IMG/VR virus record: IMGVR_UViG_3300037963_004273
Location: 1-20,931 of that record
DNA: 20,931 bases
Direction: 5' to 3' (one strand)
Source of the DNA: a virus
Program-made: the position numbers and the translations under genes
The notes under the pieces: generated by a model
Databases searched by the model: none
What the model saw: only the letters and a program-made list of their open reading frames with translations
Told to the model about the DNA's origin: nothing
Part shown: one piece after another, positions 1-20,931 of the stretch
Numbering within the stretch: the stretch's first letter is position 1
Layout of the letters: every line of letters begins with the position of its first letter

Positions 1-765
1 CAAGAAGATAAAGAAAAACAAAATGCTAAAAATCGTAAAGAAACAGCTAAACTTTTAACTGATTATTTAGTTAAACAATCACAAGAACGTATAGAAGCTA
101 TTGATAGAGAAATAGCTGCTGCTAACAAACAAGCAGACCATTTGCGTAAATTGGCTGAAACTGGTAATATAGAGGCTAAAGATAGTTTGGCAGAACAAAA
201 TAAAATAATAGCAGAAAACAACTTAAAAAAACAACAAGAACTTAAAAAACAACAAAGAATAAAACTTGCTGAAAGCGTTTACAGTACCTATAATCAAAAA
301 GTAAGTGAGGGCAGTAAAAATGCTCTTGCTGATACAATAAAAGATACTACAATGCTACAAGCATTTATTAATAGTTTACCAACTTTTGAAAAGGGTATAG
401 AAAACACTGGTAAAAATGGAAGAGGATTAGACGGAAAAGGTGGTTTTTTATCAATTTTACACCCAGAAGAAAGGGTTGTTCCTAAAGAAGAAAATAAATT
501 AATTGGAAATGTTACTAATAAAGATTTAGCAAATATTGTAAATGAATATAATACTGGTAAATTAATTTCAACTGGTGCTAAACAGCTTGGAAATGGCTGG
601 GATAGTGCTTTAATAGTAAAACAATTAATACAAGTACAAAATGCAATAGAAAACAGACCAGAAACAAATATAGAATTAGAGCAGATAATTGATGGTGTTT
701 TAACTATTTCAAGAAGTACAAAAAGGGGGAATAACGTAAATTATAATAGATACAAAATTAAATGA
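1..765 (+). CDS. Phage tail tape measure protein, C-terminal part (5' truncated by window edge)
   Basis: The frame is open from base 1 with no stop, so this is the end of a longer gene; the TTG at 142 is not a credible start. The first ~90 codons are charged and rich in K, E and Q, consistent with the coiled coil of a tape measure protein, which sets tail length and occupies the tail lumen. The second half contains GRGLDGKGGFLSILHPEERV (about residues 141-160 of the visible part) followed by PKEEN. I recognise this signature from the C-terminus of tape measure proteins in Bacteroidota phages. The stop overlaps the next start as ATGA, indicating translational coupling to the downstream tail gene. 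A long-tailed (sipho- or myovirus-like) virion is inferred. Identity rests on motif recall and position, not on a search. Confidence 0.75.
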   Translation, partial: QEDKEKQNAKNRKETAKLLTDYLVKQSQERIEAIDREIAAANKQADHLRKLAETGNIEAKDSLAEQNKIIAENNLKKQQELKKQQRIKLAESVYSTYNQKVSEGSKNALADTIKDTTMLQAFINSLPTFEKGIENTGKNGRGLDGKGGFLSILHPEERVVPKEENKLIGNVTNKDLANIVNEYNTGKLISTGAKQLGNGWDSALIVKQLIQVQNAIENRPETNIELEQIIDGVLTISRSTKRGNNVNYNRYKIK

Positions 766-2483
766 AGCATATTTTAAATGGTTTAGAAATCGCACCAAGA
801 AATATTGATGATATTGGTGTTATATCTAATTTTGGCGATATACCAACAGAATTAGAATTAAACGTGGATAAAATAATTGTTCCTCGTGAGGGATATAATT
901 TAATTAAAAGTCATATTAATACACTGGGTTTATTTGAGGGAATACCTTATGAAATAGTAATGAATAATGGAACAAGTTTACAGTATTATGTTGATTTAAC
1001 AGAAGAAACTTTATATAGAGAGCACGAAGTTGAAGTAAAAATTAAAAGGCGAAAAGGTAAAGATAATTTTTTAGATAGGGCTGATGGAAGCAGTTTTGAA
1101 ATGCTTAAAAAAAATGGAGTAAATTTTAATATTATTGATATACCTTATTTAATTATATCAGATAATCAAGCAGAGTTGTTTTTTCATTTAGCAATAACCA
1201 GTTATATTATGACTAAAGAATTAATATATGCTGCTGACCAAGTTGTTCAAGCAATAACTGAAATAATTGCTGCAACAACTCCAGACATCGGATTAGCTGG
1301 ACCAACTGTTCAAACTGGGGATATAATTAACATGGCTTTAAAAATAGCTGCAAGAATAGTTTATTTTGCTGCTGTTATTATTGCTGTTATAACTTTAGGA
1401 AAAGATTTAGTTAAACTTATATTTCCAAAAGTAAGATATTTAAAAGGTTGTTCAGTTAAAGATTTAGTTGAAAAGGGGTGTCAATATTTAGGTTATAATG
1501 TACAATCACAGTTATTAAATGATATAGAAAATTATCATATTTTACCAGTTCCATTAATGTCAAATAAAAGTCAAAAATGGTATGAAAATTTAGTAGATGA
1601 TTTAAATACAGATTTTAATAAAGGTTATCCAACTGCTCAAGACACTACTCCAAATTTAGGAAACTTAATACGTTCTATTGAAACAATGTTTAATGCTAAA
1701 ACAAGGGTTTACAATGGCACTGTTTATATTGAAAGGAGAGATTTTTGGCAAAATTTATCACAAAACGCTATAAACCCAGCTTTAAATATTCAAGCTGATA
1801 GAGATAATGTTTTTAAATATAATACTGAAGATATTTGGAAGCGTTATTACATACATTATCAAGTAGATTTTAGTGATACTCATACAACTGATGACTTTGA
1901 TAGTACAGATGCAGAATTTAGTTGTGAAGCTGTTACAGTTGTAAACCAAGATTTAGTTAATATAAAAGGTTTAAACGATGTTAATGTTAATTTTGCACTT
2001 GGTAAAAGAAAAGACAAACTTAATTTTATTGAAGCTGCTGCTGCTGATATATTAAGCAATATTGATTTAGTTGTTTCGGTGTTTGGTGGTAATTCTAATG
2101 TTCAAAGTTTAATAACTAACAGAATTGGAGTGTTACAAATTAGCCAACAATTCTTTTCTGTAACGAAACTTTTATACTTAATTGGTACAAAACAGCCAAG
2201 TAACTATAAAAACTTCGTTAGGGCTTCTTATTTGTGGGATAAATACCATTATATTAACCAAATACAGTTAAACAATTATAAAATAATTGAAAATGTAAGA
2301 GTGAGACTTTCTGATACAGATTTTGTAAATTTACAAATAAATAATTTTGCACAAATAGGAAACCAAGTTGTAGAAATACTTAAAATTGAATATATAGATG
2401 ACAAAAGTTATGCTTTAATAACTTATAGAGATTTTAATAATTATGCTCAAGGAAAAGTTAATACATTAACAATTAATAGTTAA
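762..2483 (+). CDS. Large tail protein downstream of tape measure (distal tail/baseplate hub candidate)
   Basis: 573 residues; the ATG sits in an ATGA overlap with the tape measure stop. In tailed phages the genes just after the tape measure usually encode distal-tail and hub proteins that close the tail tip, and this is the basis of the call. Residues ~1-130 look like a beta-rich soluble domain. Residues ~140-220 are strikingly hydrophobic, with two stretches around 140-170 and 190-215 (for example IVYFAAVIIAVITLG) that could be membrane-spanning helices. Residues ~225 onward are again soluble, with regions rich in aromatic and Asn residues. Such hydrophobic segments suggest insertion into a host membrane during DNA entry, which is inference. 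No enzymatic motif is recognised. It could equally be a tail-tip structural protein without enzymatic role. Confidence 0.6.
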   Translation: MKHILNGLEIAPRNIDDIGVISNFGDIPTELELNVDKIIVPREGYNLIKSHINTLGLFEGIPYEIVMNNGTSLQYYVDLTEETLYREHEVEVKIKRRKGKDNFLDRADGSSFEMLKKNGVNFNIIDIPYLIISDNQAELFFHLAITSYIMTKELIYAADQVVQAITEIIAATTPDIGLAGPTVQTGDIINMALKIAARIVYFAAVIIAVITLGKDLVKLIFPKVRYLKGCSVKDLVEKGCQYLGYNVQSQLLNDIENYHILPVPLMSNKSQKWYENLVDDLNTDFNKGYPTAQDTTPNLGNLIRSIETMFNAKTRVYNGTVYIERRDFWQNLSQNAINPALNIQADRDNVFKYNTEDIWKRYYIHYQVDFSDTHTTDDFDSTDAEFSCEAVTVVNQDLVNIKGLNDVNVNFALGKRKDKLNFIEAAAADILSNIDLVVSVFGGNSNVQSLITNRIGVLQISQQFFSVTKLLYLIGTKQPSNYKNFVRASYLWDKYHYINQIQLNNYKIIENVRVRLSDTDFVNLQINNFAQIGNQVVEILKIEYIDDKSYALITYRDFNNYAQGKVNTLTINS

Positions 2484-2484
2484 A

Positions 2485-2706
2485 ATGGAACAACACAAAG
2501 AATTAATAAACCAAATTAAAAGCAGTATAGATTTTCTAATGAAAAAAAATAATGAACTGTTGTCTAAAATACCAAAAGAAAAACAGCAAGAATTTACTGA
2601 TATAAGTGTTGATATAAATAGTGCTATTAATGCAGCAAAAGAAGGGAATTTAGAAAAAATAATGCAATTAAATAAGAAATACAATGCCAGTAAGAATAAT
2701 ATCTAA
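2485..2706 (+). CDS. Small helical protein between tail genes
   Basis: 73 residues, starting one base after the previous stop and overlapping the next gene by 23 bases, so it belongs to the tail operon. The protein is almost entirely charged and predicted helical (MEQHKELINQIKSSIDFLMK at the start), with heptad-like spacing of I, L and F that suggests a short coiled coil. No family is recognised. By position it may be a tail assembly chaperone-like or structural accessory protein, but nothing in the sequence proves that. Confidence 0.6.
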   Translation: MEQHKELINQIKSSIDFLMKKNNELLSKIPKEKQQEFTDISVDINSAINAAKEGNLEKIMQLNKKYNASKNNI

Positions 2707-5578
2707 CAGTTATCAAGATAACTTTAGCAGCCCAGCAACTTCAATTTATCGTTCTAATATAGGCGATAAAACAACTTTGACACAAGTTGTAGAAAGTGAT
2801 ATTAGATATTCAACTACTCAATCACCTTTGTTACTTGATGTATCTAATAATGAAATTTATTCAACTGGTCCTAATTGGCTTGATGAGGGGTTTATTGTAG
2901 GTGATACAGTTAGTGTAAACATATATGATACTGCTGGTGCTGTTGTTCATACTTATTCAACTACTGTATTATATGTTAATCAATCTATTTTAGGTTTAAA
3001 TGCTGTAACACATTTTTATGACAGTGCTGCTGGTGAAACAATGGTTATAGAAGTAACTGGTAGAAATAGGGGTGATTTATTAATTGCTTTTAACCAAATA
3101 CAAAATTCAAATAATACTGGAAGTATTTATTCATTAATAGACGGAGAAGCTACAAGAGCAACTTTTACAAATTTACACGCTTTAACTGTTGGCAGTACTC
3201 AAACTGGTGCTTTAGTAGGGAATCAAAGTGGGCAATTTTTACAAAGAATTACAATAGAACGAAATGCTGATAGTGGAAATACTCGTGTTTATACAATAAC
3301 TTATACTTTTTTAAATAGTGGTTTATATAATCAAACTGCTTTTACTTCTGCTGATTGTTTAAAAAACTATATAAGTTTAGAATGGGATATTGCAGACAAT
3401 AACCCAACAAGACAAACAGTAGTTAGTGATAGTGAAAAAGCTGATACTGGTTATTTTAATCAAGCGTATAATGTAGGAGTAGTTGATACTGTTTTACAAT
3501 CAACAAATTTTCAACAATTAGACTATTCTACAACAACAACTGGATTAGAAATAGTTATAGACGGAGATATTAATAATATTTCTCTTGGTGCTGCTTATGA
3601 AAGTGTAGATGATACTTATTACAAAAACCAAGTATTAAATCAAGAAAAAATTAGTATGATGATTTATACACAGTTAGCAACTGGAACTTTAACAAGTTTA
3701 CAGAACTCAAGTGGTGCTGGGTATAATTTAATAATAAACAGTGTTAATACAATAGGAACACAAACAACAATTAATTTTGATTTTCAGCCAAATACAGCTT
3801 TTAAAACTTTTATGGCAAATAGAAGTTTAGGAGACAGAAAGTTTTTTATTTGGGTTAAAGGTGGAACACAGAATATTATTGCTCATGCAAACCAACTATA
3901 TAAAGCAGAAGTAGCTGGGACTGTTTTAAGTTTATCTACTGATGTATTTAAAGACCATGCTAATATTGATGTTTTAGGAGATGCTGATACTCCAGCAAGG
4001 TTTGACACAGAAGATGATGTAAGTTATACAGCAAGATTTTTATTAACAAAAAACCAGCTTTATTCTACTTTTAAAGTTCGTTTAATGGCTTATAATAATG
4101 TTACTGGAGAGGAATTTGATTTACAAGAAAGTTTGTTTAGTTTTGCTTCTATACCTTATGATTCTACTACTGGAATTTATTCAATAGACCAACAGCAAAC
4201 TATTGTGACAACTTTGCCAACAACAAGTGATAAAAGAATAGCAACTTTTAAAAGATATCCAGCTAATGACACTGTTTTAAGTTATGGGGTTGAATTATAC
4301 TATCCTTTTTTATGTCGTTGGGAGTATTGGTTAAATTTATTAATTAGCACTTTTACAAGTAGTTTTTATCCAAACCAGAATAAAAATTGGCAACAGTATT
4401 CTGCTGCTACTAACTGGGGTGTAAAAATTAGATTAGAATTAACTGATAGCCCAAATGGAACAACAGATTTTTATGACAGACCATTTACTATTACTGATTA
4501 TGATTATGATGCTAATGTAGATAGTGGAATTGCTTTATATAGAGATTCTACTGGTGCTTATGTTAATATTATACCACAAGGGGAAATTATGACTATTTAT
4601 GCAGTGCATAAAAATTTAACTGGAAACTGGGCTGATGTTTGGGGTGCTATTACTGTTGAGCCTTTTGAATCTGCACCAAGACAAATAAGTAGTTCTATTA
4701 TTGATTATGACAATAATTTGCAAAACCCTTTAACTCCAGTTTCTGGAACAAAAATAGCTATAGATTTATCAACACCAGATTGGGCTGTTTTAAGTTGTAA
4801 ATTTGATACTAATAAAATAGATTTAACTAATGGTGTAAAAATTACTTCTAAAATTAAAGGCGATACTGTTGCTCCTTGGACAAATGCTTATTCTTTAGGT
4901 TTAGACGGAATTATGCAATATGCTGAAAGTGCTTCTACTTATAGTGCTTTAAATGGTTTAAGTAAAGCTACTTTTAGTGTTTGGATTAAGCCAGATAATT
5001 TAACTTCTCATAAAGTAATTTTTTCTAATCAACGTAATACAACAGCAACTGAAAGTCAGTTTTTCTTATGGTTGAGACCAAGTGCCTCTTATGCTTATGA
5101 ATTAGACTTTAGTATTGATGATACTCCATATTATTGCAGAAGTACAACTGGATATATTTCTGCTGGTGCTTGGAATCATGTTTGTATTGTATTAGATTTA
5201 AATGAAACTTGGAAATGCAAGATATATGTAAATGGTGTTGATAGAACTTATGGTCAAAATATGGGGAGTATTGCGACAACTTTACCGAATGCCAGTGGTA
5301 AATTAGCACTTGGAGAAGATTTAAATGGTTATCTTAATCCGTTTGAAGGAAACCTTGATGAGTTTGCTATTTTAGCAGATACTGCTCTTGATTCTACTGC
5401 TGTCGCAAACATATATAACAGTGGTAATCCAGCAGATTTATCAAGTTTAAGTCCGTCTTTATATTGGCGTTGTGGAGATAATAATAGTGGAACTGGGTTA
5501 ATAATAACAGACCAAGGAAGTAGTGCTAACAATGGTGCTTTAATAAACAGTGCTTCTTTTGAGACTGATGTACCTTAA
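2684..5578 (+). CDS. Large tail/receptor-binding protein with C-terminal LamG-like domain
   Basis: 964 residues, rich in T, S, N, Y and D with few charges, typical of beta-structured phage tail fibres. The ATG overlaps the preceding small gene by 23 bases. The N-terminal ~700 residues are a long beta-rich region with no recognised family. Residues ~736-930 resemble a concanavalin A/LamG-like jellyroll: GLDGIMQYA, then FSVWIKPDNL, WNHVCIVLDL, CKIYVNGVDR and NPFEGNLDEFAILADTAL, in the order characteristic of LamG domains. Such domains bind glycans, so recognition of host surface polysaccharide is likely. Its place at the end of the tail gene block fits a fibre or adhesin. Function in adsorption is inferred; the domain is visible by its motif series. 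Confidence 0.7.
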   Translation: MPVRIISNSYQDNFSSPATSIYRSNIGDKTTLTQVVESDIRYSTTQSPLLLDVSNNEIYSTGPNWLDEGFIVGDTVSVNIYDTAGAVVHTYSTTVLYVNQSILGLNAVTHFYDSAAGETMVIEVTGRNRGDLLIAFNQIQNSNNTGSIYSLIDGEATRATFTNLHALTVGSTQTGALVGNQSGQFLQRITIERNADSGNTRVYTITYTFLNSGLYNQTAFTSADCLKNYISLEWDIADNNPTRQTVVSDSEKADTGYFNQAYNVGVVDTVLQSTNFQQLDYSTTTTGLEIVIDGDINNISLGAAYESVDDTYYKNQVLNQEKISMMIYTQLATGTLTSLQNSSGAGYNLIINSVNTIGTQTTINFDFQPNTAFKTFMANRSLGDRKFFIWVKGGTQNIIAHANQLYKAEVAGTVLSLSTDVFKDHANIDVLGDADTPARFDTEDDVSYTARFLLTKNQLYSTFKVRLMAYNNVTGEEFDLQESLFSFASIPYDSTTGIYSIDQQQTIVTTLPTTSDKRIATFKRYPANDTVLSYGVELYYPFLCRWEYWLNLLISTFTSSFYPNQNKNWQQYSAATNWGVKIRLELTDSPNGTTDFYDRPFTITDYDYDANVDSGIALYRDSTGAYVNIIPQGEIMTIYAVHKNLTGNWADVWGAITVEPFESAPRQISSSIIDYDNNLQNPLTPVSGTKIAIDLSTPDWAVLSCKFDTNKIDLTNGVKITSKIKGDTVAPWTNAYSLGLDGIMQYAESASTYSALNGLSKATFSVWIKPDNLTSHKVIFSNQRNTTATESQFFLWLRPSASYAYELDFSIDDTPYYCRSTTGYISAGAWNHVCIVLDLNETWKCKIYVNGVDRTYGQNMGSIATTLPNASGKLALGEDLNGYLNPFEGNLDEFAILADTALDSTAVANIYNSGNPADLSSLSPSLYWRCGDNNSGTGLIITDQGSSANNGALINSASFETDVP

Positions 5579-5590
5579 AATTAAAATAAA

Positions 5591-5854
5591 ATGTTAAGAG
5601 AATTTATAGATGATACTTATATTATTATTAATAAAAGTGATATTAGTAGTGTAAACTTTGATGAAATAAAACAAGATAGCGTTTATACTTGTCGTTATTC
5701 AATAGATAATAAATTAGTAATATTATCTTATTTTGAAACACCAAACTTTATTAAAATAGGTAGATTAAAACCTAAAAAATATTTAACATGGAATCAAGCA
5801 GTAATAGAAATGCAGTTGCCTAACTGGAGTGAAACCCCAAAAGAAGATGAATGA
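5591..5854 (+). CDS. Hypothetical protein, 87 residues
   Basis: A small soluble protein starting 12 bases after the LamG tail protein and overlapping the next gene by 8 bases, so part of the late operon. The sequence is mixed beta with many aromatic residues (DSVYTCRYSIDNKLVILSYF) and ends in WNQAVIEMQLPNWSETPKEDE. No family is recognised. It might be a small tail accessory protein judging by position only. Confidence 0.55.
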   Translation: MLREFIDDTYIIINKSDISSVNFDEIKQDSVYTCRYSIDNKLVILSYFETPNFIKIGRLKPKKYLTWNQAVIEMQLPNWSETPKEDE

Positions 5855-6122
5855 TATATTTGACATATTAACTCAATATGGTGTTTTGGGTGTTTGGGTT
5901 TTTTATGCTATTACTCGTGAAAGGTGGTTGCTAAAAAAACTGGAGCAAATTAGTGAAAGGGCTACAAAAGAAAGAGAAGTTTGGCACAATGAAAGGCAAA
6001 ATTTTTTAAATAAATGTAACAAACAAAGAGAAGATTTTATTAAGGAAATTTCACTAATTAGACAAGAAGAAAGAAATATTTATATAAAACAATTAGAAAA
6101 AATATATAATAGTAAAAAATAA
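5847..6122 (+). CDS. BhlA/UviB-like small membrane protein (holin-like)
   Basis: 91 residues from the ATG at 5847; a GTG 18 bases upstream at 5829 is in frame, but the ATG is preferred because it gives the usual N-terminus (MNDIFDILTQYGVLGVWVFY). One N-terminal hydrophobic segment (~residues 7-24) is followed by a long, highly charged helix rich in K, R, E and Q, ending in QLEKIYNSKK. This single-TM plus charged coiled-coil plan is that of BhlA/UviB-type bacteriocin or holin proteins. A role in membrane permeabilisation during lysis is plausible, but these proteins are short and the assignment is by architecture. It sits between tail genes and a structural protein rather than next to the endolysin, so a virion-associated role is an alternative. 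Confidence 0.5.
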   Translation: MNDIFDILTQYGVLGVWVFYAITRERWLLKKLEQISERATKEREVWHNERQNFLNKCNKQREDFIKEISLIRQEERNIYIKQLEKIYNSKK

Positions 6123-6171
6123 AATAAAAAAAATCTTATTTTATTATTAATTTTGTAAAAAAAAAGAAAAA

Positions 6172-6465
6172 ATGAGTAAAGTGCAAAATGATGGAGTTTC
6201 AATAACTCTAAAAACAAGGTTAATATCTACAAGCTATAAAATTACGTCTTTAACTTATGAAGGAGATTTCGTAACTCGTGCTGATTTATTAATAGATTAT
6301 ATTAAGCAAGAATTTTATCAAGATGATGAATCTGAAGAGGGTGAGGGTGTTGAAACAATAGTGACAAGCACTACTGAATCAATGACTACTACTGCTCTTG
6401 GAACTGGAGAAGCTAACATTGATTATGAGGCTGCTGTTACTTTAGCTTTGAGTTCAAAACTGTAA
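6172..6465 (+). CDS. Hypothetical protein, 97 residues, acidic linker
   Basis: Starts after a 49-base gap. The N-terminal half (MSKVQNDGVSITLKTRLIST) looks beta-rich. The centre carries an acidic stretch (DDESEEGEGVE), then a Thr/Ser-rich segment (TSTTESMTTTALGTGEANID), ending in a short helix. No family is recognised. The composition fits a small virion or tail component. The stop is followed directly by a second stop and the GTG of the next gene, so the two are probably co-translated. Confidence 0.5.
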   Translation: MSKVQNDGVSITLKTRLISTSYKITSLTYEGDFVTRADLLIDYIKQEFYQDDESEEGEGVETIVTSTTESMTTTALGTGEANIDYEAAVTLALSSKL

Positions 6466-11974: not shown

Positions 11975-12594
11975 AAGGAAAAAAAAGTTTTATAATGTAT
12001 GCAGATTATATACATACGTTTAATATTTTAAATGATGAAAAAGCTGGTAGGCTAATTAAAACCATTTTTAGTTATGTAAATGACGAAAACCCACAAATAG
12101 ATGAGGAAGTTTTACAAGTAGCATTTGAGCCTATTAAACAGCAGTTAAAACGTGATTTAAAAGGTTGGGAAAACAAAAAAAGTAAAAGGGTTGAAGCTGG
12201 GCGTTTAGGTGGTTTAGCAAAAGCTAACAATGCTAAACAAAGCAAAGCAAATTTAACTGTTAATGATAGTGTAAATGTAAATGTTACTGTTAATGATAGT
12301 GTAAATAAAATTAATAATCATATTATTAATGATTTTAATACTGTTTTTAATGGTATAAAAAAAGCAAGAGTATTTCCAAATAAACTACAAAAAAAATATA
12401 AGGAATTAATTAAAGAGGGTTTTACTTTAAAAATGGTTTTATCAGCTATGCAAAACGCAAAACAAGACCAGTTTCATAAAGATACTAATTTTCGTTATTG
12501 TACTTTAGAATATTTTAGTAGGGTTAAAACATTAGACAAATATTGTTATATTAGTGAGAACAAAAAAGATAATAAATATATTCCTACATTATGA
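11971..12594 (+). CDS. DUF6291-type replication protein (initiator/helicase-loader candidate)
   Basis: 207 residues, starting in an ATGA overlap. The N-terminal half begins KKSFIMYADYIHTFNILNDE and continues AGRLIKTIFSYV, the pattern of DUF6291, seen in phage replication proteins. Residues ~75-120 are a low-complexity linker with a tandem TVNDSV unit. The C-terminal part (VFNGIKKARVFPNKLQKKYKELIKEGFT) looks like a helical domain, as in DnaD-like or O-like organisers. It directly precedes and overlaps the DnaB-type helicase gene (ATGA), as initiators or loaders do. Origin binding and helicase loading are inferred. Its linker-coding DNA carries direct repeats that may be origin elements. Confidence 0.65.
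   Translation: MKGKKSFIMYADYIHTFNILNDEKAGRLIKTIFSYVNDENPQIDEEVLQVAFEPIKQQLKRDLKGWENKKSKRVEAGRLGGLAKANNAKQSKANLTVNDSVNVNVTVNDSVNKINNHIINDFNTVFNGIKKARVFPNKLQKKYKELIKEGFTLKMVLSAMQNAKQDQFHKDTNFRYCTLEYFSRVKTLDKYCYISENKKDNKYIPTL
12256..12330 (+). repeat. Tandem 21-bp direct repeats plus AT-rich palindrome inside the replication gene (candidate origin)
   Basis: ACTGTTAATGATAGTGTAAA with one further T occurs at 12256-12276 and again, identically, at 12286-12306, a 30-base period. Immediately after, a perfect 9-bp inverted repeat (ATTAATAAT, 3-base loop, ATTATTAAT) lies at 12310-12330. It sits in the linker-coding region of a replication protein gene, the same arrangement as phage lambda's origin within O. 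Only two repeat copies are present, so this is a hypothesis. Confidence 0.4.
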
Positions 12595-13922
12595 GAGCAT
12601 TGGACAAAGTATATGCAGTTATACTTTTAAGCCCTAAAAAAGAATCATATAAAATTTATAATTTATTAAACAGTAAGTATAATAAAACAAAGTTTGAAAA
12701 AGACTTATATAATACTATTGGAAGTTTAATAGAGCAAAACAAAGAAATAGATTTAATGACTGTTGCACTGGGTTTTAAAGAGCAAAAAATTTATGATAAA
12801 ACATATATTGGAAAATTAAGTGCTATAACTGGTAACATTCCAGCAGAAACATTTTTAACAGTTAATCAAATATTAGCTGGTTTAAAATACAGTAATGATA
12901 TTGACAATGCTAAACAAACAGCAGATAAAATATATCATTTAATAAACAGTGGTAATTACACAAACAATAATTTTTTAGATATATTAAGTAACACCAGCAC
13001 AATAAAAAACAATGTAAATAATAATGTTATAAAAAACAGTGATTTAATATTTCAGTTATTAGAAAAACACGAAAAAAGTAAAAACGGAATAAACACTGGT
13101 TTGAGTTTGGGTTTTAGCACTTTAAGACGTTATATACAATTAGAGCCAGTTGATATGATGGTAGTTGGAGCAAGACCAGCGATGGGAAAAACAGCATTTG
13201 CTGTTGAAATAGTTTGCAGATTAGCAAGGCAAAACAAAAAAGTAGCTTTATTTAGTTTGGAAATGTCAGCAGAACAAATGATGAGAAGAATAGTTGGCAA
13301 CTTGGCAAAGTTAGACACAAATAAAATAAAGTTTGGAGAATGTAATAGCACAGAGATTGAAAAAATATATACTGTTCAAAGTGCTAAATTTTTAGATAAT
13401 ATTACCATATTTGAGGGCAGCAATAATGTTAGACAAATATCGCAAAAGGTTAATGACTTAAAACTTGATAAGGGTTGTGATTTATTTATAGTTGATTATT
13501 TACAAAAAGTAATGCCAAGTAGAAGCAACAGTAGTAGATATGAACAAGTTACTTCAATAAGTAATGGGATAAAATTTATAAGCCAAAATTTAAAAATTCC
13601 AAGTTTATGTTTAGCCCAGTTAAATAGAGAAAATGCAAGAACTGGAAAATTGCCAAGTTTGCCAGATTTGCGTGAAAGTGGGGAAATAGAGCAAGATGCT
13701 TCAATAGTTAGTTTTTTACATAGACCAGAATATTACGGAGAGGAAACAACAAGTAATGGAACACCAGCAGAAAATATTTGTGAATTTTTAATAGCTAAAA
13801 ATAGAGAAGGCAGTATAGATAAATTTGAATTTGCAGTTAATTTAAAAAATAGTAGTTTTGATGATATTAGCGAATATGATATAGCAAGACAAAAATTAAC
13901 AGCAGATGAAACCCCATTTTAA
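12591..13922 (+). CDS. dnaB: Replicative DNA helicase, DnaB family
   Basis: 443 residues, close to the family's usual 440-470. It is an ATP-driven ring helicase that unwinds the replication fork. The N-terminal domain (~1-110) has the weak family pattern; the RecA-like C-terminal domain carries Walker A GARPAMGKT (193-201), the FSLEMS motif (221-226), Walker B with VDYLQ (301-305), AQLNR (342-346), LRESGEIEQDAS (360-371), SFLHR (374-378) and an NREGS motif near 404. The start overlaps the replication protein as ATGA, and the stop overlaps the NinG-like gene by 17 bases. The sequence looks intact. No primase or DNA polymerase gene is seen in this window. Confidence 0.92.
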   Translation: MRALDKVYAVILLSPKKESYKIYNLLNSKYNKTKFEKDLYNTIGSLIEQNKEIDLMTVALGFKEQKIYDKTYIGKLSAITGNIPAETFLTVNQILAGLKYSNDIDNAKQTADKIYHLINSGNYTNNNFLDILSNTSTIKNNVNNNVIKNSDLIFQLLEKHEKSKNGINTGLSLGFSTLRRYIQLEPVDMMVVGARPAMGKTAFAVEIVCRLARQNKKVALFSLEMSAEQMMRRIVGNLAKLDTNKIKFGECNSTEIEKIYTVQSAKFLDNITIFEGSNNVRQISQKVNDLKLDKGCDLFIVDYLQKVMPSRSNSSRYEQVTSISNGIKFISQNLKIPSLCLAQLNRENARTGKLPSLPDLRESGEIEQDASIVSFLHRPEYYGEETTSNGTPAENICEFLIAKNREGSIDKFEFAVNLKNSSFDDISEYDIARQKLTADETPF

Positions 13923-14708: not shown

Positions 14709-14735
14709 TAACAAAAAAAAAGAAAAAATATAGTT

Positions 14736-14960
14736 ATGAAAAAATTAGATTTAAACGCAGAAAAAGCATGGGTTACTTTTAGTGAAAATGATGAGTTTGA
14801 AAGTGTTTGGCAACCAGTAATGATGAACGGAAAGCAATTAAACTGGGATAGTCATTTTATAATGGAAATAGCACGTGAAAGATGGGGTGAAACTAAAAGT
14901 TTTGGAATAGCACCTACATCACAAATGTTAATGAGAAATGCAGTAAGAGATAATTTTTAA
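14736..14960 (+). CDS. Hypothetical protein, 74 residues
   Basis: Follows after 27 bases, with the leader AAAAATATAGTTATG before it. Sequence: MKKLDLNAEKAWVTFSENDE, then FESVWQPVMMNGKQLNWDSH, then a basic helix ERWGETKSFGIAPTSQMLMR. Tryptophan-rich. No family recognised. The next gene carries the same leader, so the two were probably duplicated or share a translational signal. Confidence 0.55.
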   Translation: MKKLDLNAEKAWVTFSENDEFESVWQPVMMNGKQLNWDSHFIMEIARERWGETKSFGIAPTSQMLMRNAVRDNF

Positions 14961-14979
14961 TTTAAAAAAAAATATAGTT

Positions 14980-15345
14980 ATGAAACAATTAGAATTTTTA
15001 ACAAAAGATAAATTAAAAGATAGTGATTTTTTTAATGATGAACACAAAGGAAATAACACTATTGGAATTAGTTTTTTTGATAACAATATAGAGCATACTT
15101 TTTATATTGGTTGGACAGTTGAAAACGTAAAAATTACAGCAGCTAATTTTGAACACGAAACAGCAGAAGTAGATTATGATATTGTGTTTAACTGGGAAGA
15201 TAAACATTACTACTATGATAATTTAACTACTGGTAAAGATGAGGAATTAAATATTAACATAAAGTATAAAAAAATTATTGAAAAATATATTTTAGACAAT
15301 AAAAGCATTTTTTTACACCAGTTAATAGATTTTGAAAATATTTAA
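14980..15345 (+). CDS. Hypothetical acidic protein, 121 residues
   Basis: Starts after the same AAAAATATAGTTATG leader as the gene upstream. The protein is acidic and beta-rich (HTFYIGWTVENVKITAANFE; VDYDIVFNWEDKHYYYDNLT). No family recognised. Small, acidic, early-expressed phage proteins include DNA mimics and anti-defence proteins; this one has that composition, but there is no motif to support a specific function. Confidence 0.55.
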   Translation: MKQLEFLTKDKLKDSDFFNDEHKGNNTIGISFFDNNIEHTFYIGWTVENVKITAANFEHETAEVDYDIVFNWEDKHYYYDNLTTGKDEELNINIKYKKIIEKYILDNKSIFLHQLIDFENI

Positions 15346-15373
15346 TGCCAAAAAAAATCACGAAATTTGTTAA

Positions 15374-15706
15374 ATGAAATTAACAAGTTTTTTAGATGGT
15401 TTGGCTTTTACTCCAGAGAGGGCTCATATAAATGGCTTTTATTTTTTTAAACCCTCTGAAACACTGTTAGAAGATTACAGTAAATTACAAGACAACGAAT
15501 GGGAAGAGTTTTTAGTTGGTTTTATATACTGGGTTGATATTACTGGTATAGAACACAAATTTGCCAAAGTAATAAAACACGCTGATGACAGTTTAAGTTT
15601 AAATATTTACGTTTTAGGCAAATTAGTAATCGTACAAATAGACCAAACCATGATTGATGAATTTAGAAAAACAGATAAAAAAGAAGTAATTTTTCTATAT
15701 AATTAA
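15374..15706 (+). CDS. Hypothetical protein, 110 residues
   Basis: Starts 28 bases after the previous stop. Mixed alpha/beta, with MKLTSFLDGLAFTPERAHIN, then WEEFLVGFIYWVDITGIEHK and VLGKLVIVQIDQTMIDEFRK. No family recognised. It ends just before a candidate promoter and a 65-base gap, so it is probably the last gene of the second small-gene block. Confidence 0.55.
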   Translation: MKLTSFLDGLAFTPERAHINGFYFFKPSETLLEDYSKLQDNEWEEFLVGFIYWVDITGIEHKFAKVIKHADDSLSLNIYVLGKLVIVQIDQTMIDEFRKTDKKEVIFLYN

Positions 15707-15737
15707 TTTGTATATATATATTTTTTTACTACTTTTA
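15707..15737 (+). promoter_or_regulatory. Candidate Bacteroidota promoter (TTTG, 19 bp, TACTTTTA)
   Basis: TTTG at 15707-15710 and TACTTTTA at 15730-15737, 19 bases apart, matching TAnnTTTG except for the last base. It lies about 35 bases before the ATG at 15772, in a gene-free stretch, and would drive the recombination genes. Confidence 0.45.
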
Positions 15738-15771
15738 TTAAAATTTTAATTTATATAAAAAAGATAACAAA

Positions 15772-16236
15772 ATGAGAACATTTAACAAGTACAAAAAAAA
15801 TTTGAAAGTTGTAATGAGCAACGGAGAAAACTTTGTAAAAAGCTATGATACTTTAGTAGCTAAAATTGACAGAGGCAACAATAAACTTTATCAGTTAGGT
15901 TATTGGAGTATGACAACACAAAAACACATTAATTATGCAGCTTATGAACTGGGGTTGGAATTAATAAGAGAAGATGATAAAGAAAATATTGAAACTAACA
16001 AACCAAAACAAGAGGATAGTTTTGCACTGGGTTTTATGGGTGCATTTTTACAGTTAGGACAATTAACCAAATTTAAAAACATTGAAGAAGAAATAAAGTA
16101 TAAAGAAAAAATTGTTTTTTCTACTATGAAATTTGAAATACCAAATTGGCAAAAACCAAATGACTGGAACGATATATCAAATGAGGAAAAATTAGAAAGA
16201 TTAAATAAAATACAAACAGTTAATTTAAATAAATAG
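15772..16236 (+). CDS. Phage-conserved hypothetical protein, 154 residues
   Basis: Preceded by a 65-base AT-rich gap with a candidate promoter. The N-terminal ~70 residues, SYDTLVAKIDRGNNKLYQLG followed by YWSMTTQKHINYAAYELGLE, resemble a small phage domain (pattern: gly-x-trp-ser-x-thr-thr-x-lys-his-ile-asn) that I have seen in many dsDNA phages. The C-terminal half is acidic and helical (QEDSFALGFMGAFLQLGQLT). Its function is unknown; its location next to the annealing protein gene makes a role in replication or recombination possible. Confidence 0.5.
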   Translation: MRTFNKYKKNLKVVMSNGENFVKSYDTLVAKIDRGNNKLYQLGYWSMTTQKHINYAAYELGLELIREDDKENIETNKPKQEDSFALGFMGAFLQLGQLTKFKNIEEEIKYKEKIVFSTMKFEIPNWQKPNDWNDISNEEKLERLNKIQTVNLNK

Positions 16237-16238
16237 TT

Positions 16239-16799
16239 ATGAGTAAAACCACAGACAAAGTGATAGAAATGGCAGAGGAATTAATGCATATTAATAACCA
16301 AATGAACAGCCAACTAAAAACGGAAAACATTAAGGGAAAACCTTATGTTAATGTAACTGAACGAATAAAAGCGTTTATAGCATACAAATACAATTATAAG
16401 TTAGAAACAGTTTTGCTACAATTTACAGAAGATTATTGTGTATTTAAAGCAATAGTAACAAACGAAAATAATGAAATTGTATCTACTGGACACGCCCACG
16501 AGTTACAAGGTAACAGCTATATTAACAATTTAAGTTATGTAGAAAACTGTGAAACTTCTGCTATTGGAAGGGCTTTAGGTTTTATTGGAATAGGTATTGA
16601 CACCAGTATAGCATCAGCTAATGAAGTTAGAACAGCTATTAAAAACCAAGACAGAAAAATTGTTAAGCGTACAACTTTAAACGGAGATGAGTTTAAAAGA
16701 GCATTAAAAGCAATAGAAAAAGGCGATTACACGAAAGAAAAACTTAAAAAGGAGTATAACCTTAACACAGAGCAAATAAACCTTTTAAAACTAATGTAA
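16239..16799 (+). CDS. Putative single-strand annealing protein (ERF/Sak-like)
   Basis: 186 residues. The central region carries YVNVTERIKAFIAYKYN (~36-52), VFKAIVTNENNEIVSTGHAH and NNLSYVENCETSAIGRALGF with GIGIDTSIASANEV after it. This pattern, and particularly ENCETSAIGRALG, is typical of phage recombination proteins of the Rad52/ERF/Sak group, which anneal complementary single strands. The C-terminal part (GDEFKRALKAIEKGDYTKEK) is a small helical domain. An exonuclease gene overlaps it downstream (TAATG), and annealing protein and exonuclease pairs are a standard recombination module. Family assignment is from memory and should be checked by a profile search. Confidence 0.6.
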   Translation: MSKTTDKVIEMAEELMHINNQMNSQLKTENIKGKPYVNVTERIKAFIAYKYNYKLETVLLQFTEDYCVFKAIVTNENNEIVSTGHAHELQGNSYINNLSYVENCETSAIGRALGFIGIGIDTSIASANEVRTAIKNQDRKIVKRTTLNGDEFKRALKAIEKGDYTKEKLKKEYNLNTEQINLLKLM

Positions 16800-17539
16800 T
16801 GGAAAAATATATAGAAAGAGCAAGTCAATTGCATAGGATAATGTCAAACCCAGTTTCTAAAAAAGCTAAAGAAGCTGGGGAATTATCACTAACTGCTAAA
16901 GGTAGAGTATTAGAAAGATACAATGAATTAAATTATGGTATATATAAAAACATTGATAACAAATTTACATTAAAAGGAACACAGCTTGAAGATGAAAGTA
17001 TTTTGTTATTTAAAAAAGTGTTTGGGGAGTTTAGTTTATTTAAAAATGAAAAAAATTTTAAAGACGAATATTTTACTGGAACACCAGATTTAATTACTGA
17101 TGATTTAGTTATAGATATTAAAACTAAATACAGTTTAGATGGTTTTCAAAAAATGTATTATAATCAAAAACCAGTAGATAAAGCATATATATATCAAATA
17201 CAATGTTATATGCACTTGTTAGGGCTTAAAAGGGGAATGATAGCATTTTGTTTAACTAATAACAGTGAAGAAGGTATTGTTAAAGAAATACAAAGTCAAA
17301 TTTATAAAAGTGATAAAATTAGTTATACAGATTCAGAATATTTACAAATAGAGGAAAAAGTTAGAAAGGAACAAACATTTGATTATTTGCCAGACAATAA
17401 AAGGGTTAAAATGATATTTGTAGATTATAATGAAGATTTAATAGTGCAAATGAAAGAAAGAATAAAACAATGCGATAAATATTACAAATGGATTGATACT
17501 TATGTTTGTGATAATTTAGAAAAAAGTTTGGTTATATAG
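16799..17539 (+). CDS. YqaJ-like/PD-(D/E)XK phage exonuclease
   Basis: 246 residues. Motif series of lambda-exo/YqaJ-type nucleases: a glutamate in GTQLEDESILLFKK (60-73), GTPDLITDDLVIDIKTKYS with Asp97, Asp106 and Lys108 (D...DxK), and the conserved IYQIQCYMHLLG with Gln133 and Tyr137 (QxxxY). The enzyme is expected to resect dsDNA ends with Mg2+ and to hand single strands to the annealing protein encoded just upstream (TAATG coupling). The catalytic residues are intact. Confidence 0.78.
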   Translation: MEKYIERASQLHRIMSNPVSKKAKEAGELSLTAKGRVLERYNELNYGIYKNIDNKFTLKGTQLEDESILLFKKVFGEFSLFKNEKNFKDEYFTGTPDLITDDLVIDIKTKYSLDGFQKMYYNQKPVDKAYIYQIQCYMHLLGLKRGMIAFCLTNNSEEGIVKEIQSQIYKSDKISYTDSEYLQIEEKVRKEQTFDYLPDNKRVKMIFVDYNEDLIVQMKERIKQCDKYYKWIDTYVCDNLEKSLVI

Positions 17540-17557
17540 TAAAAAGTAGTAAATTTA
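17527..17557 (+). promoter_or_regulatory. Candidate Bacteroidota promoter (TTTG, 19 bp, TAAATTTA)
   Basis: TTTG at 17527-17530, inside the last codons of the exonuclease gene, then 19 bases, then TAAATTTA at 17550-17557. One mismatch to TAnnTTTG. It ends 20 bases before the ATG of the ssDNA-binding protein gene at 17578 and could drive it together with the downstream HTH and modification operon. Confidence 0.4.
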
Positions 17558-17577
17558 AAATTTAAAAAAGTAAAATT

Positions 17578-17931
17578 ATGCGATTAAAAGGAAAATTAAT
17601 TAAGATTAATCAAGAACAAGTTATAAATGATAAGTTTAAAAAGCGTGAGTTTATAATAGAAACTTTTGATGAAAAGTACCCACAAACTATAAATTTTCAA
17701 TTAAATAACAACAATGTTAGTTTAATAGATGATTTTAATGTAGGTGAAGCAGTAGAAGTAGAATTTAGAATATCTGGTAAACTATGGACGGATAAAAATG
17801 GTGTTGAAAGGTGTTTTAATAATTTAGTTTGTATAAACTTATTTATAACAGAAACACAAGTTTTATACAAAAAAGATGTTGAGCCAGTTACTAAACACTA
17901 TGTAGAAAATGAAGATGATTTACCATTTTAA
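17578..17931 (+). CDS. DUF3127-type single-stranded DNA-binding protein
   Basis: 117 residues. The pattern GKLIKINQEQVINDKFKKRE, then FIIETFDEKYPQTINFQL, then VGEAVEVEFRISGKLWTDKN and FNNLVCINLFI is that of DUF3127, an OB-fold family in Bacteroidota. The acidic C-terminal tip ENEDDLPF matches the SSB tail (DDxPF) by which SSB proteins recruit replication and repair partners. It probably protects ssDNA during phage replication and recombination. Position after the annealing protein and exonuclease supports this. Confidence 0.75.
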   Translation: MRLKGKLIKINQEQVINDKFKKREFIIETFDEKYPQTINFQLNNNNVSLIDDFNVGEAVEVEFRISGKLWTDKNGVERCFNNLVCINLFITETQVLYKKDVEPVTKHYVENEDDLPF

Positions 17932-17941
17932 AAATTAAAAC

Positions 17942-18154
17942 ATGAAAGCAAAAGATTTAAAAAACTTAACTAAACTATCACAAAAGTTAGTTAAAGAGCA
18001 TTTAATAAAACATAGCAAGACTGAAAGTGGTTTTGCTAAAGAAGCTGGAATACACCCAGCACAGTTATTATTATTTATGAGAAATGAAAGGGGTTTAACA
18101 GCCAAGTCTTTAGAAAATATTGGCGAAATAATTTACAAGTATGACAAAAATTAA
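17942..18154 (+). CDS. Small helix-turn-helix protein
   Basis: 70 residues, starting 10 bases after the SSB-like gene. A helix-turn-helix is apparent: KTESGFAKEAGIHPAQLLLF (~26-45) followed by NERGLTAKSLENIGEIIYKY, similar to XRE/Cro-type DNA-binding domains. It may regulate the phage's own promoters. A large inverted repeat 34 bases downstream of its stop (18188-18238) is a candidate site. The gene overlaps the next gene by 14 bases. Confidence 0.6.
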   Translation: MKAKDLKNLTKLSQKLVKEHLIKHSKTESGFAKEAGIHPAQLLLFMRNERGLTAKSLENIGEIIYKYDKN

Positions 18155-18371
18155 AAAGTTTTTAAGTACGCTTATAGGGTTGTTATTAATACCAGTAGTT
18201 ATATCAATATTTTTTATTGATAGAGTTATACTGGTATTTTTACCTCATGTTAAAAGCAGCACAATAGGAGAAGTTTTTACAGATTTAAAAATGTTGGCTC
18301 ACTCTTTATATAGAGTTGGATTAGTGTTTTTTATTTATTGTATATATTTACTAATTACAAAAGTTATTTAA
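18141..18371 (+). CDS. Small membrane protein, two predicted TM segments
   Basis: 76 residues, overlapping the HTH gene by 14 bases and the ParB-domain gene by one (TAATG). A hydrophobic helix at ~8-34 (STLIGLLLIPVVISIFFIDR then VILVFL) and another at ~58-76 (GLVFFIYCIYLLITKVI) flank a polar loop. No family is recognised. The coding sequence contains a long interrupted inverted repeat at 18188-18238. It precedes the 7-deazaguanine gene cluster, but nothing ties it to DNA modification directly. Confidence 0.5.
   Translation: MTKIKKFLSTLIGLLLIPVVISIFFIDRVILVFLPHVKSSTIGEVFTDLKMLAHSLYRVGLVFFIYCIYLLITKVI
18188..18238 (+). repeat. Large nested inverted repeat/hairpin followed by T-tract
   Basis: Outer arms AATACCAGTA (18188-18197) and TACTGGTATT (18229-18238) are perfectly complementary. 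Inside, TATCAATA (18202-18209) and TATTGATA (18215-18222) also pair perfectly around a 5-base T loop, giving 18 bp in two stems. A run of Ts follows. It lies within the membrane protein gene, upstream of the ParB/dpdA/que operon, and could be an attenuator or an operator. Confidence 0.55.
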
Positions 18372-18904
18372 TGAAAAAAATAGATATAAATAAAATAAAA
18401 GAAAACAGTGAAAACCCTCGTTACATAACAGAGGAAAAATTTGAAAAACTTGTAGAAAGTTTAAAAGAATTTCCAGAAATGTTAGAAGTTAGAGAATTAG
18501 TAGTTGATGAAAACTTTGTTGTATTGGGTGGAAATATGCGATTAAAAGCACTTAAAGCTGTTGGGGTTAAGGAAGTACCATATAAACAAGTAAAGAACTG
18601 GACAGAGCAGCAAAAACGTGAATTTATTATTAAAGATAATATTGGTTTTGGTCAATGGGATTGGGATATACTTGGTAACGAATGGGATAATGAAGAATTA
18701 AATAAGTGGGGTTTACAAACCTATGATATAAAAAATGATATAGAGTTAGATGATTTTTTTGAGGAAAACACCCCACAAGAAAAAATTAATACAAATGTTA
18801 TAACACTGGAATATAATGATGATGATTATAAAGTTATTAATGATATTTTAAGTGGTTTAAATGGCTCTAAAGAGGAAATAATATATAATTTATTAACTAA
18901 ATGA
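18371..18904 (+). CDS. ParB-like (ParB/Sulfiredoxin fold) domain protein
   Basis: 177 residues from the ATG at 18371, chosen because it follows the upstream stop as TAATG and gives the family N-terminus (MKKIDINKIKENSENPRYIT). NPR at 15-17, FPEMLEVRELVVDENF and VVLGGNMRLKALKAVGVKEV (51-70) match the ParB N-terminal domain, with GGNMR as the nucleotide-binding box II. The family includes ParB CTPases and phage proteins, often adjacent to or fused with DNA methyltransferases, but no methyltransferase domain is present here. The C-terminal ~55 residues end in a helical segment (DDYKVINDILSGLNGSKEEI). It is ATGA-coupled to dpdA, suggesting a link to DNA modification or targeting; this is inference. 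Confidence 0.7.
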   Translation: MKKIDINKIKENSENPRYITEEKFEKLVESLKEFPEMLEVRELVVDENFVVLGGNMRLKALKAVGVKEVPYKQVKNWTEQQKREFIIKDNIGFGQWDWDILGNEWDNEELNKWGLQTYDIKNDIELDDFFEENTPQEKINTNVITLEYNDDDYKVINDILSGLNGSKEEIIYNLLTK

Positions 18905-19635
18905 AAGTTTTTTTAGCTGGAAGTGGATGGGAGAAAAGATTATGGATGAAAGATAACTTTTATAAGTTTTATCGCTTACATACTTTTTATCATATTGCTG
19001 AACATGAAGCAAAAGTTATTAATAAATACGATGATTTTTTGCTTGATAGTGGTGCATTTTCTTTTTTTGGTGGAAAGGTTGTAAACTGGGATGAATATTT
19101 AACTGATTATATAAATTTTATTAATAAATATGATGTTAAACTGTTTTTTGAGTTAGATTTATATAGGTTAATAGGTATAAAAGAAACAGAAAAATTAAGA
19201 GCAAGATTAGAAAAAGAAACAAATAAACAAAGTATTCCAGTATTTCATAAAATGTTAGGAATAGATTATTATAAAATGTTATGTAAAAATTATAATTATA
19301 TTGCTATCGGTGCTTCTGGTATGTATGACACTGATTGGACAAGAAAAGACCCTAAAAAACTTTTAAAAATGCTTTTATTCGCAAAAAAACTTAATACTAA
19401 AGTTCATGGATTAGGATATACAAAAATTCCAATGCTTGATAAAATGCCTTTTTACAGTGTTGATTCAACAAGTTGGTTAGCTGGAAGTAGATTTGGAGTA
19501 TTACATTTTTTTAATGGTAGAGATTTAAGAAAAGTAAAAAAACCTTTAGGAACAAGGTTAAAAACATTTAAAACAGCAGAATCTAATTTCTATGAGTGGG
19601 TTAAATTTACAAGTTACGCAAAAGATAATTTATGA
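18901..19635 (+). CDS. dpdA: DpdA-like DNA-guanine transglycosylase (TGT superfamily)
   Basis: 244 residues, short relative to bacterial DpdA (about 400) but in the range of compact phage forms. TGT-family features: FLLDSGAFSFFGG with Asp49-Ser50-Gly51 (the D-S-G-F box that holds the base-binding aspartate), FFELD (82-86), SIPVFHKMLG (111-120), HGLG (169-172), then FYSVDSTSWLAGS with Asp188 as the likely catalytic nucleophile. DpdA enzymes swap guanine in DNA for preQ0 or a derivative. The gene lies in an ATGA-coupled run with the preQ0 genes queC, queD and queE immediately downstream, strongly supporting DNA, not tRNA, modification. No zinc-binding Cys cluster of tRNA TGT is visible. Confidence 0.78.
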   Translation: MKVFLAGSGWEKRLWMKDNFYKFYRLHTFYHIAEHEAKVINKYDDFLLDSGAFSFFGGKVVNWDEYLTDYINFINKYDVKLFFELDLYRLIGIKETEKLRARLEKETNKQSIPVFHKMLGIDYYKMLCKNYNYIAIGASGMYDTDWTRKDPKKLLKMLLFAKKLNTKVHGLGYTKIPMLDKMPFYSVDSTSWLAGSRFGVLHFFNGRDLRKVKKPLGTRLKTFKTAESNFYEWVKFTSYAKDNL

Positions 19636-20309
19636 AAGCAGTAGTGATATTTAGTGGTGGACAAGACTCAACAACTTGTTTAAAATGGGCTATAAATAGA
19701 TATAAAAAGGTTGAGGCAATCACTTTTAATTATGGGCAAAAACATAATATTGAAATAGAGCAAAGTAAAATTATATGTAAAAAATATAATATAAAACAAA
19801 CACTTATAAACATAGATTTTTTAAATACTATTGTAGAAAGTGCTTTAATATCAAATGGGGATATAAACAAAACTAATAAAAAAGAACAGCCAAGCAGTTT
19901 CGTGCCAAATAGAAACCAGTTATTTATCACTTTAGCACATAGTTACGCACAAAAAATTAATTTTAATGTTATTGTTACTGGTGTTTGTCAAACTGATTAT
20001 AATGGTTTTGCTGATTGTAGAGAGAGTTTTATTAAAGCAATAGAGTGGACAACTAATTTAGGAAGTAAAGACAATATAATTATTGAAACTCCATTAATGT
20101 ATTTAACAAAATCAGAAACTTTTTTATTAGCCAAAAAAGAAAATTGTTTAGATGATGTTATAAATTTGTCACATACTTGTTACAATGGTAATAGAGAAAA
20201 ATTAAATGAGTGGGGTTATGGTTGTGATAATTGCCCAGCTTGTAAATTAAGAAAAGAGGGTTATAATAAATTTTTAAAAAATGAGTTACATATCAACAAA
20301 AATATTTGA
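19632..20309 (+). CDS. queC: 7-cyano-7-deazaguanine (preQ0) synthase QueC
   Basis: 225 residues, near the usual family length. It converts 7-carboxy-7-deazaguanine to preQ0 with ATP and ammonia. The PP-loop ATP pyrophosphatase motif SGGQDS is at 8-13, followed by FNYGQKHNIEIEQSK. The mid region has VPNRNQLFITLAHSYAQ and DYNGFADCR (122-130). The C-terminal zinc site consists of Cys183 (HTCY) and Cys198, Cys201 and Cys204 (CDNCPAC). All key residues are present, so it should be active. The start overlaps dpdA as ATGA and the end overlaps queD by 29 bases. Confidence 0.92.
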   Translation: MKAVVIFSGGQDSTTCLKWAINRYKKVEAITFNYGQKHNIEIEQSKIICKKYNIKQTLINIDFLNTIVESALISNGDINKTNKKEQPSSFVPNRNQLFITLAHSYAQKINFNVIVTGVCQTDYNGFADCRESFIKAIEWTTNLGSKDNIIIETPLMYLTKSETFLLAKKENCLDDVINLSHTCYNGNREKLNEWGYGCDNCPACKLRKEGYNKFLKNELHINKNI

Positions 20310-20745
20310 TAATTATTCAGTAGCATTAAGACAACACAAAGCACAGCACTCTCATTGTCAGTTGTTACATGGTTATGCTATTAAATTCAAAGTTTGGTTT
20401 AGTACAGACAAATTAGATGATATGAACTGGGTTGTTGATTTTGGGGGGTTTAAAGATAAACCAGTAGGAAACGGATTAAAAAGTTGGATGAACGATATGT
20501 TTGACCATACGTTATTGATAGAAAAAGATGACCCTTATATAGATATATTTGAACAACTGGGTGTCATGGGTTTAGCAAAAGTTAAAATAATGAATAAAAT
20601 GGGTTGTGAAAATCTTGCAAAGTTAGTATATGATAAATTTAATGATGTATTAAGTAAAACAGATGCTGCAAGGTGTAAAGTGATAAAAGTAGAATGTTTT
20701 GAAAACGATAAAAATTCAGCAATATATGAAAATAGAGGATATTAA
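20281..20745 (+). CDS. queD: 6-carboxytetrahydropterin synthase QueD, phage-type variant
   Basis: 154 residues. The enzyme makes 6-carboxy-5,6,7,8-tetrahydropterin from dihydroneopterin triphosphate. The call rests on the active-site-like blocks HCQLLHGYAIKF (25-36) with Cys26, WVVDFGGFK (50-58), MFDHTLLIEKDDP (73-85) with Asp75 and His76, and VECFEN (137-142). In classical QueD two of three zinc histidines lie in an HGH motif and one lies in an AAH motif; here the motif reads HGY and the AAH position is altered, so metal binding is rearranged. This HGY form seems to occur in other phage QueD-like proteins. The gene overlaps both neighbours. Confidence 0.8.
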   Translation: MSYISTKIFDNYSVALRQHKAQHSHCQLLHGYAIKFKVWFSTDKLDDMNWVVDFGGFKDKPVGNGLKSWMNDMFDHTLLIEKDDPYIDIFEQLGVMGLAKVKIMNKMGCENLAKLVYDKFNDVLSKTDAARCKVIKVECFENDKNSAIYENRGY

Positions 20746-20931
20746 GTTAAATGTTAGTGAAATTTTTTACTCTTTACAAGGCGAGGGAGCAAGAATAGGA
20801 ACTCCAACTATATTTATTAGACTTCAAGGGTGTAAAACTAAACACGCTTGTTTTAAAATGGGTATTAAATGTGATACAGAGTTTGAAAGTGGTAAAGAAA
20901 TGTCTATATTAGATATATTAAAATGGTGTAA
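20726..20931 (+). CDS. queE: 7-carboxy-7-deazaguanine synthase QueE-like radical SAM protein (3' truncated by window edge)
   Basis: The ATG at 20726 overlaps queD by 20 bases and the frame stays open to the end of the window (about 68 codons visible). The start NVSEIFYSLQGEGARIGTPT, then IFIRLQGC, is typical of QueE, which turns carboxytetrahydropterin into 7-carboxy-7-deazaguanine. Radical SAM enzymes of this family normally have CX3CX2C, or CX14CX2C, for the 4Fe-4S cluster; here three cysteines are spaced CX5CX6C (Cys37, Cys43, Cys50) just before the usual D-T. The rest of the protein is outside the window. A functional, divergent QueE is more likely than a broken one, since the surrounding motif is well kept. 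Confidence 0.82.
   Translation, partial: MKIEDIKLNVSEIFYSLQGEGARIGTPTIFIRLQGCKTKHACFKMGIKCDTEFESGKEMSILDILKWC

Follow-up and report, generated by a model that had tools for sequence, protein, structure and literature searches.

Introduction

Phages are known to escape restriction by site loss or by DNA modification, and both appear in the genome described here. Restriction-site avoidance is a known strategy of double-stranded DNA (dsDNA) phages (Rusinov et al. 2018, PMC6286503), and hydroxymethylcytosine coliphages avoid 2.4% of sites compared with 55.8% in relatives without that base (PMC6286503). Under the criteria set out by Hutinet et al. 2019 (PMC6884629), DpdA together with FolE, QueD, QueE, and QueC predicts preQ0 or ADG in DNA. 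Broad-host-range plasmids avoid 6-bp palindromes, a trait interpreted as the result of passing through many restriction systems (Shaw et al. 2023, PMC10359461). The phage analyzed here is an extreme new case of the known site-avoidance strategy.

Results

The phage genome and its probable host

The window, the whole stretch of 20,931 nucleotides under analysis (positions 1 to 20931), is part of a 35,946-base virus record whose remaining ~15.0 kb we refer to as L009. The ends of the record have ~150 bases in common with one mismatch (window positions 1 to 155 and the end of L009), so the record is probably a near-complete genome of ~35.8 kb; the shared ends also point to a circularly permuted or terminally redundant genome. 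Genes recognized in the record include those for terminase, portal, head protease, capsid, tape measure, DnaB-like helicase, NinG, and endolysin. The DnaB-like replicative helicase gene lies among the phage replication genes (positions 12591 to 13922, plus strand; PF03796). The portal gene (L009:5070-6275) is on the strand opposite to its neighbors, an arrangement also seen in the closest relative, L090. Most of the record's proteins were scanned against Pfam, PHROGs, and NCBIfam, and no integrase was recognized among them; searches for tRNA genes and for near-identical phage DNA returned none.

The capsid protein is ~50% identical to Flavobacterium phage capsid proteins, which makes a host within the Bacteroidota probable. 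A host search by terminase in genome contigs gave nothing close; matches included a Prevotella metagenome-assembled genome (MAG) at 42% and a MAG contig that carries the label Rhodobacteraceae but may be misbinned.

GATC is absent and Asp codons carry its footprint

Direct counting finds no GATC in the window, as a first-pass annotation made from the sequence had noted, and its figure of about 50 sites expected from base composition is close to the 46.8 that we compute. Markov models of order 1 and order 2 predict 17.2 and 20.0 sites, and synonymous shuffling within genes, which preserves the protein sequences and codon use, predicts 22.8 ± 3.3 (n = 1000; minimum, 13); the deficit holds in all of these counts. 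GATC is likewise missing from the 15.0-kb rest of the record, where 16.9 sites are expected, giving 0 against 42.8 ± 4.6 for the record as a whole (synonymous shuffles, 33.5 kb coding).

Junctions of GAT with a following C hold 17.6 of the 22.8 sites that the synonymous shuffle predicts for the window, and the use of GAC before C is therefore a direct footprint of GATC loss. All 15 Asp codons that precede C in the window are GAC and none is GAT (positions 136, 1236, 3953, 4187, 5510, 7096, 8499, 9062, 9739, 12466, 14344, 15641, 19348, 20503, and 20530), the Asp-Gln pair GAC-CAA at positions 1236 to 1241 on the plus strand being one example. Before A, G, or T, Asp is encoded by GAT 315 times and by GAC 60 times. 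The whole record repeats the pattern, with 0 GAT and 28 GAC before C and 540 GAT and 106 GAC (16%) elsewhere. The first-pass annotation had proposed this rule from about 15 cases, and the ten example sites that it gave are all confirmed.

General avoidance of T before C across codon junctions was ruled out, in agreement with the same annotation: Asn before C is encoded freely by AAT (41 codons, against 39 AAC) while GAT before C is zero. AAC makes up 49% of Asn codons before C and 28% elsewhere, so that C before C is mildly favored in general, which cannot account for GAC in 28 of 28 cases.

At least six other words are purged

The GATC deficit ranks only fourth largest among strand-merged 4-mers. 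The deepest full absences are those of CAGG/CCTG and CTAG, and CTNAG is at zero too. In synonymous shuffles of the whole record, the expectations are 59.3 for CTAG, 57.4 for CAGG, 15.2 for CCTG, and 48.7 for CTNAG, with none of them observed; TCGA, absent from the window, occurs once in the record against 16.9 expected. A second shuffle, in which the words already missing were forbidden so that overlaps cannot yield false signals, reveals further deficits in CTRYAG (1 versus 35), GTYRAC (0 versus 20), and AGTACT (1 versus 15), among others, as well as in the asymmetric words AAATCC/GGATTT (0 versus 21), ACCGT/ACGGT (0 versus 20), and GAGCT (3 versus 36). Words with an observed/expected ratio below 0.1 and an expectation above 15, the expectation being that of synonymous shuffling and not the published CB statistic, include GATC (0/43), CTAG (0/59), CAGG (0/57), CTNAG (0/49), CTRYAG (1/35), GTYRAC (0/20), and TCGA (1/17). 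The window from 1 to 20931, most of which reads as coding, thus lacks GATC, CTAG, CAGG/CCTG, CTNAG, TCGA, and GTYRAC and holds a single CTRYAG, and the rest of the record is similar. Codon and amino-acid use do not account for these deficits in within-gene shuffles, and the absence goes beyond short-word composition as well.

We take GATC to be the target of DpnII, CTAG of MjaI and BfaI, CTNAG of DdeI, TCGA of TaqI, CTRYAG of SfcI, GTYRAC of HincII, and AGTACT of ScaI, so that most of the at least seven eliminated words are presumably known type II sites. We know of no enzyme that matches CAGG/CCTG, and a literature search for one found none; nor can we name an enzyme for GGATTT or ACGGT. The loss of CAGG as part of CCWGG or CCNGG was ruled out: every CAGG is gone while CCAG and CTGG are enriched. 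Two pentamers are also enriched in the record, ACGGA 2.5-fold and ACTGG 1.5-fold; CAGG-to-CTGG changes may explain part of the ACTGG excess.

GATC is therefore neither the sole nor the dominant missing word, the deficits of CTAG, CAGG/CCTG, and CTNAG being equal or larger. The first-pass annotation had read the pattern as that expected from one special GATC system, of the DpnII/MboI type or methyl dependent; this part of its reading is not supported, since at least seven words are eliminated and GATC is just one of them. Ordinary type II restriction offers a simpler shared explanation for the loss of half a dozen unrelated words. A DpnI-like enzyme that cuts methylated GATC after the host Dam enzyme has methylated the phage DNA would also clear GATC completely, and for the type IIM pairs with that site studied by Rusinov et al. 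(PMC6286503), GATC counts are reported to be reduced in all genomes. This explanation is very improbable here: it leaves CTAG, CTNAG, CAGG, CTRYAG, GTYRAC, and TCGA unexplained, and the Pfam, PHROGs, and NCBIfam scans, which covered most of the record's proteins, recognized no methyltransferase.

The depletion extends to longer palindromes. Hexamer palindromes with two or four G/C occur 44 times against 231 expected, or 0.19 of the order-2 Markov expectation, and this ratio (19%) is the lowest among the ~70 sequences compared. AT-only hexamer palindromes are normal (0.97), and non-palindromes of equal G/C lie at 1.0 to 1.16.

The avoided words turn over among relatives

Many of the ~100 related loci retrieved have missing words of their own. 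In the closest relative, L090, of which 18.4 kb of a 20.7-kb contig was compared, structural proteins are mostly 72 to 86% identical to those of the phage. L090 avoids far fewer words: GATC occurs 98 times (40 expected, ~2.5-fold), CTAG 98 times (96 expected), CAGG 39 times (43 expected), and CTNAG 51 times, with CATG and TCGA absent and hexamer palindromes at 0.82. Loss of GATC as a trait of the whole lineage was ruled out by the GATC richness of L090. Selection against GATC, as the first-pass annotation had proposed, is a well-supported reading of the pattern, which survives codon-preserving shuffling, is no T-before-C effect, and stands against 98 GATC in the closest relative. That an intrinsic mutation or codon-pair bias of the phage or host removes the words is hardly credible, although the mild preference of Asn for C before C (AAC 49% versus 28%) leans that way: zeros remain after synonymous shuffling, L090 holds 2.5 times the expected GATC, and the loss strikes palindromic words and both strands while leaving AT-only palindromes untouched.

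In a codon alignment covering 14.8 kb, the phage has CTGG at 13 of the 15 positions where L090 has CAGG and CCAG at 11 of the 16 where L090 has CCTG; positions that are GATC in L090 are mostly GATT, GACC, or GATA in the phage (GATT or GACC most often). The missing words are thus replaced by one-step neighbors, and the differences between the two genomes are mainly one-step changes. The alignment suggests either that the purge is later than the split from L090 or that it has been relaxed in L090.

CTAG is the commonest eliminated word among relatives. The elimination of CAGG/CCTG is shared by L003/L004, L011, L022, and L097/L100, and CATG is avoided in the DpdA-bearing relatives L002 to L005 and not in the phage. 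Other relatives lack AGCT, CCGG, GGCC, or CTNAG, or the asymmetric words CCTTC, CCTC, and GGTGA, which we take to be type IIS sites. The avoided set turns over fast, and simple inheritance along the phage lineage does not explain it, since the closest relative and others miss different words. In L005, L008, L099, L104, and L108, CCAG/CTGG is eliminated instead of CAGG/CCTG; this too is a non-palindromic 4-mer for which we can name no enzyme.

A predicted 7-deazaguanine cassette

A ParB–DpdA–QueC–QueD–QueE–FolE cassette is present between a small membrane protein gene and the small terminase subunit gene, with those of its genes that lie in the window on the plus strand. Its first gene encodes a protein with a ParB N-terminal domain by profile scans (positions 18371 to 18904) and abuts and overlaps dpdA (positions 18901 to 19635), which encodes a small, 244-aa DpdA-type DNA 7-deazaguanine transglycosylase (phrog_887, E = 2e-44). 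The DSGAF (D49) and VDS (D188) motifs of this protein have aligned counterparts in the 9g and CAjan phage DpdAs, both aspartates being invariant. QueC, the 7-cyano-7-deazaguanine synthase, follows at positions 19632 to 20309 (PF06508, E = 7e-71; TIGR00364 above cut-off), and a QueD-like 6-carboxytetrahydropterin synthase at 20281 to 20745 (PF01242; TIGR03367, E = 2.5e-9, below the NCBIfam equivalog cut-off). The 5' part of the gene for QueE (7-carboxy-7-deazaguanine synthase), on which it was scored, occupies positions 20699 to 20931 with an uncertain start codon and continues at L009:1-417; FolE comes next by profile scans (L009:383-1069). No amidotransferase was recognized among the phage proteins scanned, which cover part of the small open reading frames.

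The cassette therefore combines a DpdA carrying the TGT-type acidic residues with FolE, QueD, QueE, and QueC, as in the preQ0 group, and is predicted to place 7-deazaguanine (preQ0 or a derivative/ADG) in the phage DNA. The suggestion in the first-pass annotation that the phage modifies its guanines is upheld at the level of gene content (DpdA, QueC, QueD, QueE, and FolE). A homologue of the ParB-like gene also lies directly 5' of dpdA in L002, L003, and L007, and the ParB-like protein may be a specificity partner of DpdA. In the Fusobacterium phage phiFN37, too, a ParB-like gene abuts the DpdA gene (L114:37548-38833). A PAPS-reductase-like protein (phrog_424) is encoded at L009:3954-4817, and phiFN37 has one near its DpdA gene.

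L090 lacks the entire cassette at the syntenic position, where the same two flanking genes are 35 bases apart (L090:2008-2044), a statement that covers this position within the 18.4 kb of the contig that was read. The phage and L090 thus form a clean natural plus/minus pair at the cassette locus (window position 18371 to L009:~1066). As L090 also avoids few words, the relation between the two escape strategies becomes testable.

The cassette itself might shape the pattern if DpdA, perhaps aimed by its ParB-like partner, modified only certain sequence contexts and exposed sites outside them were purged. The cassette is complete here and missing at the syntenic position in L090, with its far fewer avoided words, and the DpdA-bearing relative L002 has the next strongest depletion of hexamer palindromes (0.25), with L003, L004, L005, and L008 at 0.46 to 0.58. 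We nevertheless consider this explanation improbable: no word is eliminated in the DpdA-bearing phages 9g, CAjan, and phiFN37, the avoided words vary among DpdA-bearing relatives, as with CATG, and the correlation is based on few phages.

Discussion

The purge of GATC and at least six other words most probably reflects selection by host restriction-modification, with the cassette as a second, partial layer. Several host restriction-modification systems would select against their sites, which would be lost mainly through single, mostly silent base changes, such as Asp GAT to GAC before C or CAGG to CTGG, until GATC and at least six other short words had been cleared; where a site is missing, no cut can be made. 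The ParB–DpdA–Que–FolE cassette would add partial protection by replacing some guanines with a 7-deazaguanine, predicted to be preQ0 or a derivative. We infer that the selection came from restriction, that the phage encountered several type II systems, and that its cassette works, though incompletely.

In genomes sampled from the phylum of a Prevotella MAG, enzyme families occur for each of CTAG, GATC, TCGA, and GTYRAC. RE_MjaI, a CTAG enzyme family, is found in 42 of 296 of these genomes, which, with CTAG the commonest eliminated word among the relatives, counts in favor of this reading. Counting against selection by host restriction-modification, full-length DpnII-family (GATC) genes occur in only 1 of the 296 sampled genomes, TaqI in 1 of 198, and HincII in 2 of 198; further, no restriction gene is linked to the phage, and GGATTT and ACGGT have no enzyme that we can name. 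GATC, TCGA, and GTYRAC specificities are also found in other enzyme families.

The low avoidance in hydroxymethylcytosine coliphages also counts against our reading, since DNA modification should lessen the need for avoidance. Purge and modification together would be an unexpected combination, because those coliphages hardly avoid sites and 9g, CAjan, and phiFN37 eliminate none. The two could coexist if protection is sequence specific and incomplete, if it was gained after the purge, or if unusually many restriction systems were met, the argument made for broad-host-range plasmids (PMC10359461). A bolder proposal, which we regard as rather unlikely, is that CAGG/CCTG is the target of a widespread undescribed Bacteroidota restriction system and that ParB–DpdA modifies only some contexts, forcing the phage both to modify and to purge; if so, the purged words together would show the ParB–DpdA modification motif in negative. 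On our preferred reading, selection by several restriction-modification systems, the purged words predict restriction specificities of the phage host, including one for CAGG/CCTG that has no obvious known enzyme.

Comparison with known systems

The cassette resembles that of the preQ0-group Escherichia phage CAjan (PMC6884629) in its combination of DpdA with FolE, QueD, QueE, and QueC, in the lack of a recognized amidotransferase, and in its alignable DpdA motifs. It differs in having a short DpdA of 244 aa, with 24% identity to that of CAjan, and a ParB-like gene beside it. No 4- or 5-mers are eliminated in CAjan and 9g, whereas the present phage, whose modification is predicted from its genes, has many.

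Flavobacterium phage vB_FspS_snusmum6-1 (MN812234), with a major capsid protein ~50% identical to that of our phage, has likewise almost eliminated GATC (3/61) and CTAG (2/75). Unlike our phage, it has annotated DNA methyltransferase genes, and DpdA, QueC, and QueD proteins were not found in it. It also lacks CGCG and GGCC, its CAGG is not eliminated, and its hexamer palindromes are reduced only to 0.60.

General avoidance of 6-bp palindromes is shared with the plasmids of Shaw et al. 2023 (PMC10359461), although here it concerns a phage and another statistic (0.19 of the order-2 Markov expectation). As in the cases of Rusinov et al. 2018 (PMC6286503), short words, mostly orthodox type II sites, are eliminated (ratio below 0.1) from a dsDNA phage with no integrase detected. 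Unlike in those cases, a single 36-kb genome has lost, fully or nearly, at least seven unrelated words as well as most of its G/C-containing hexamer palindromes, and CAGG, a clear non-palindromic 4-mer, stands at zero.
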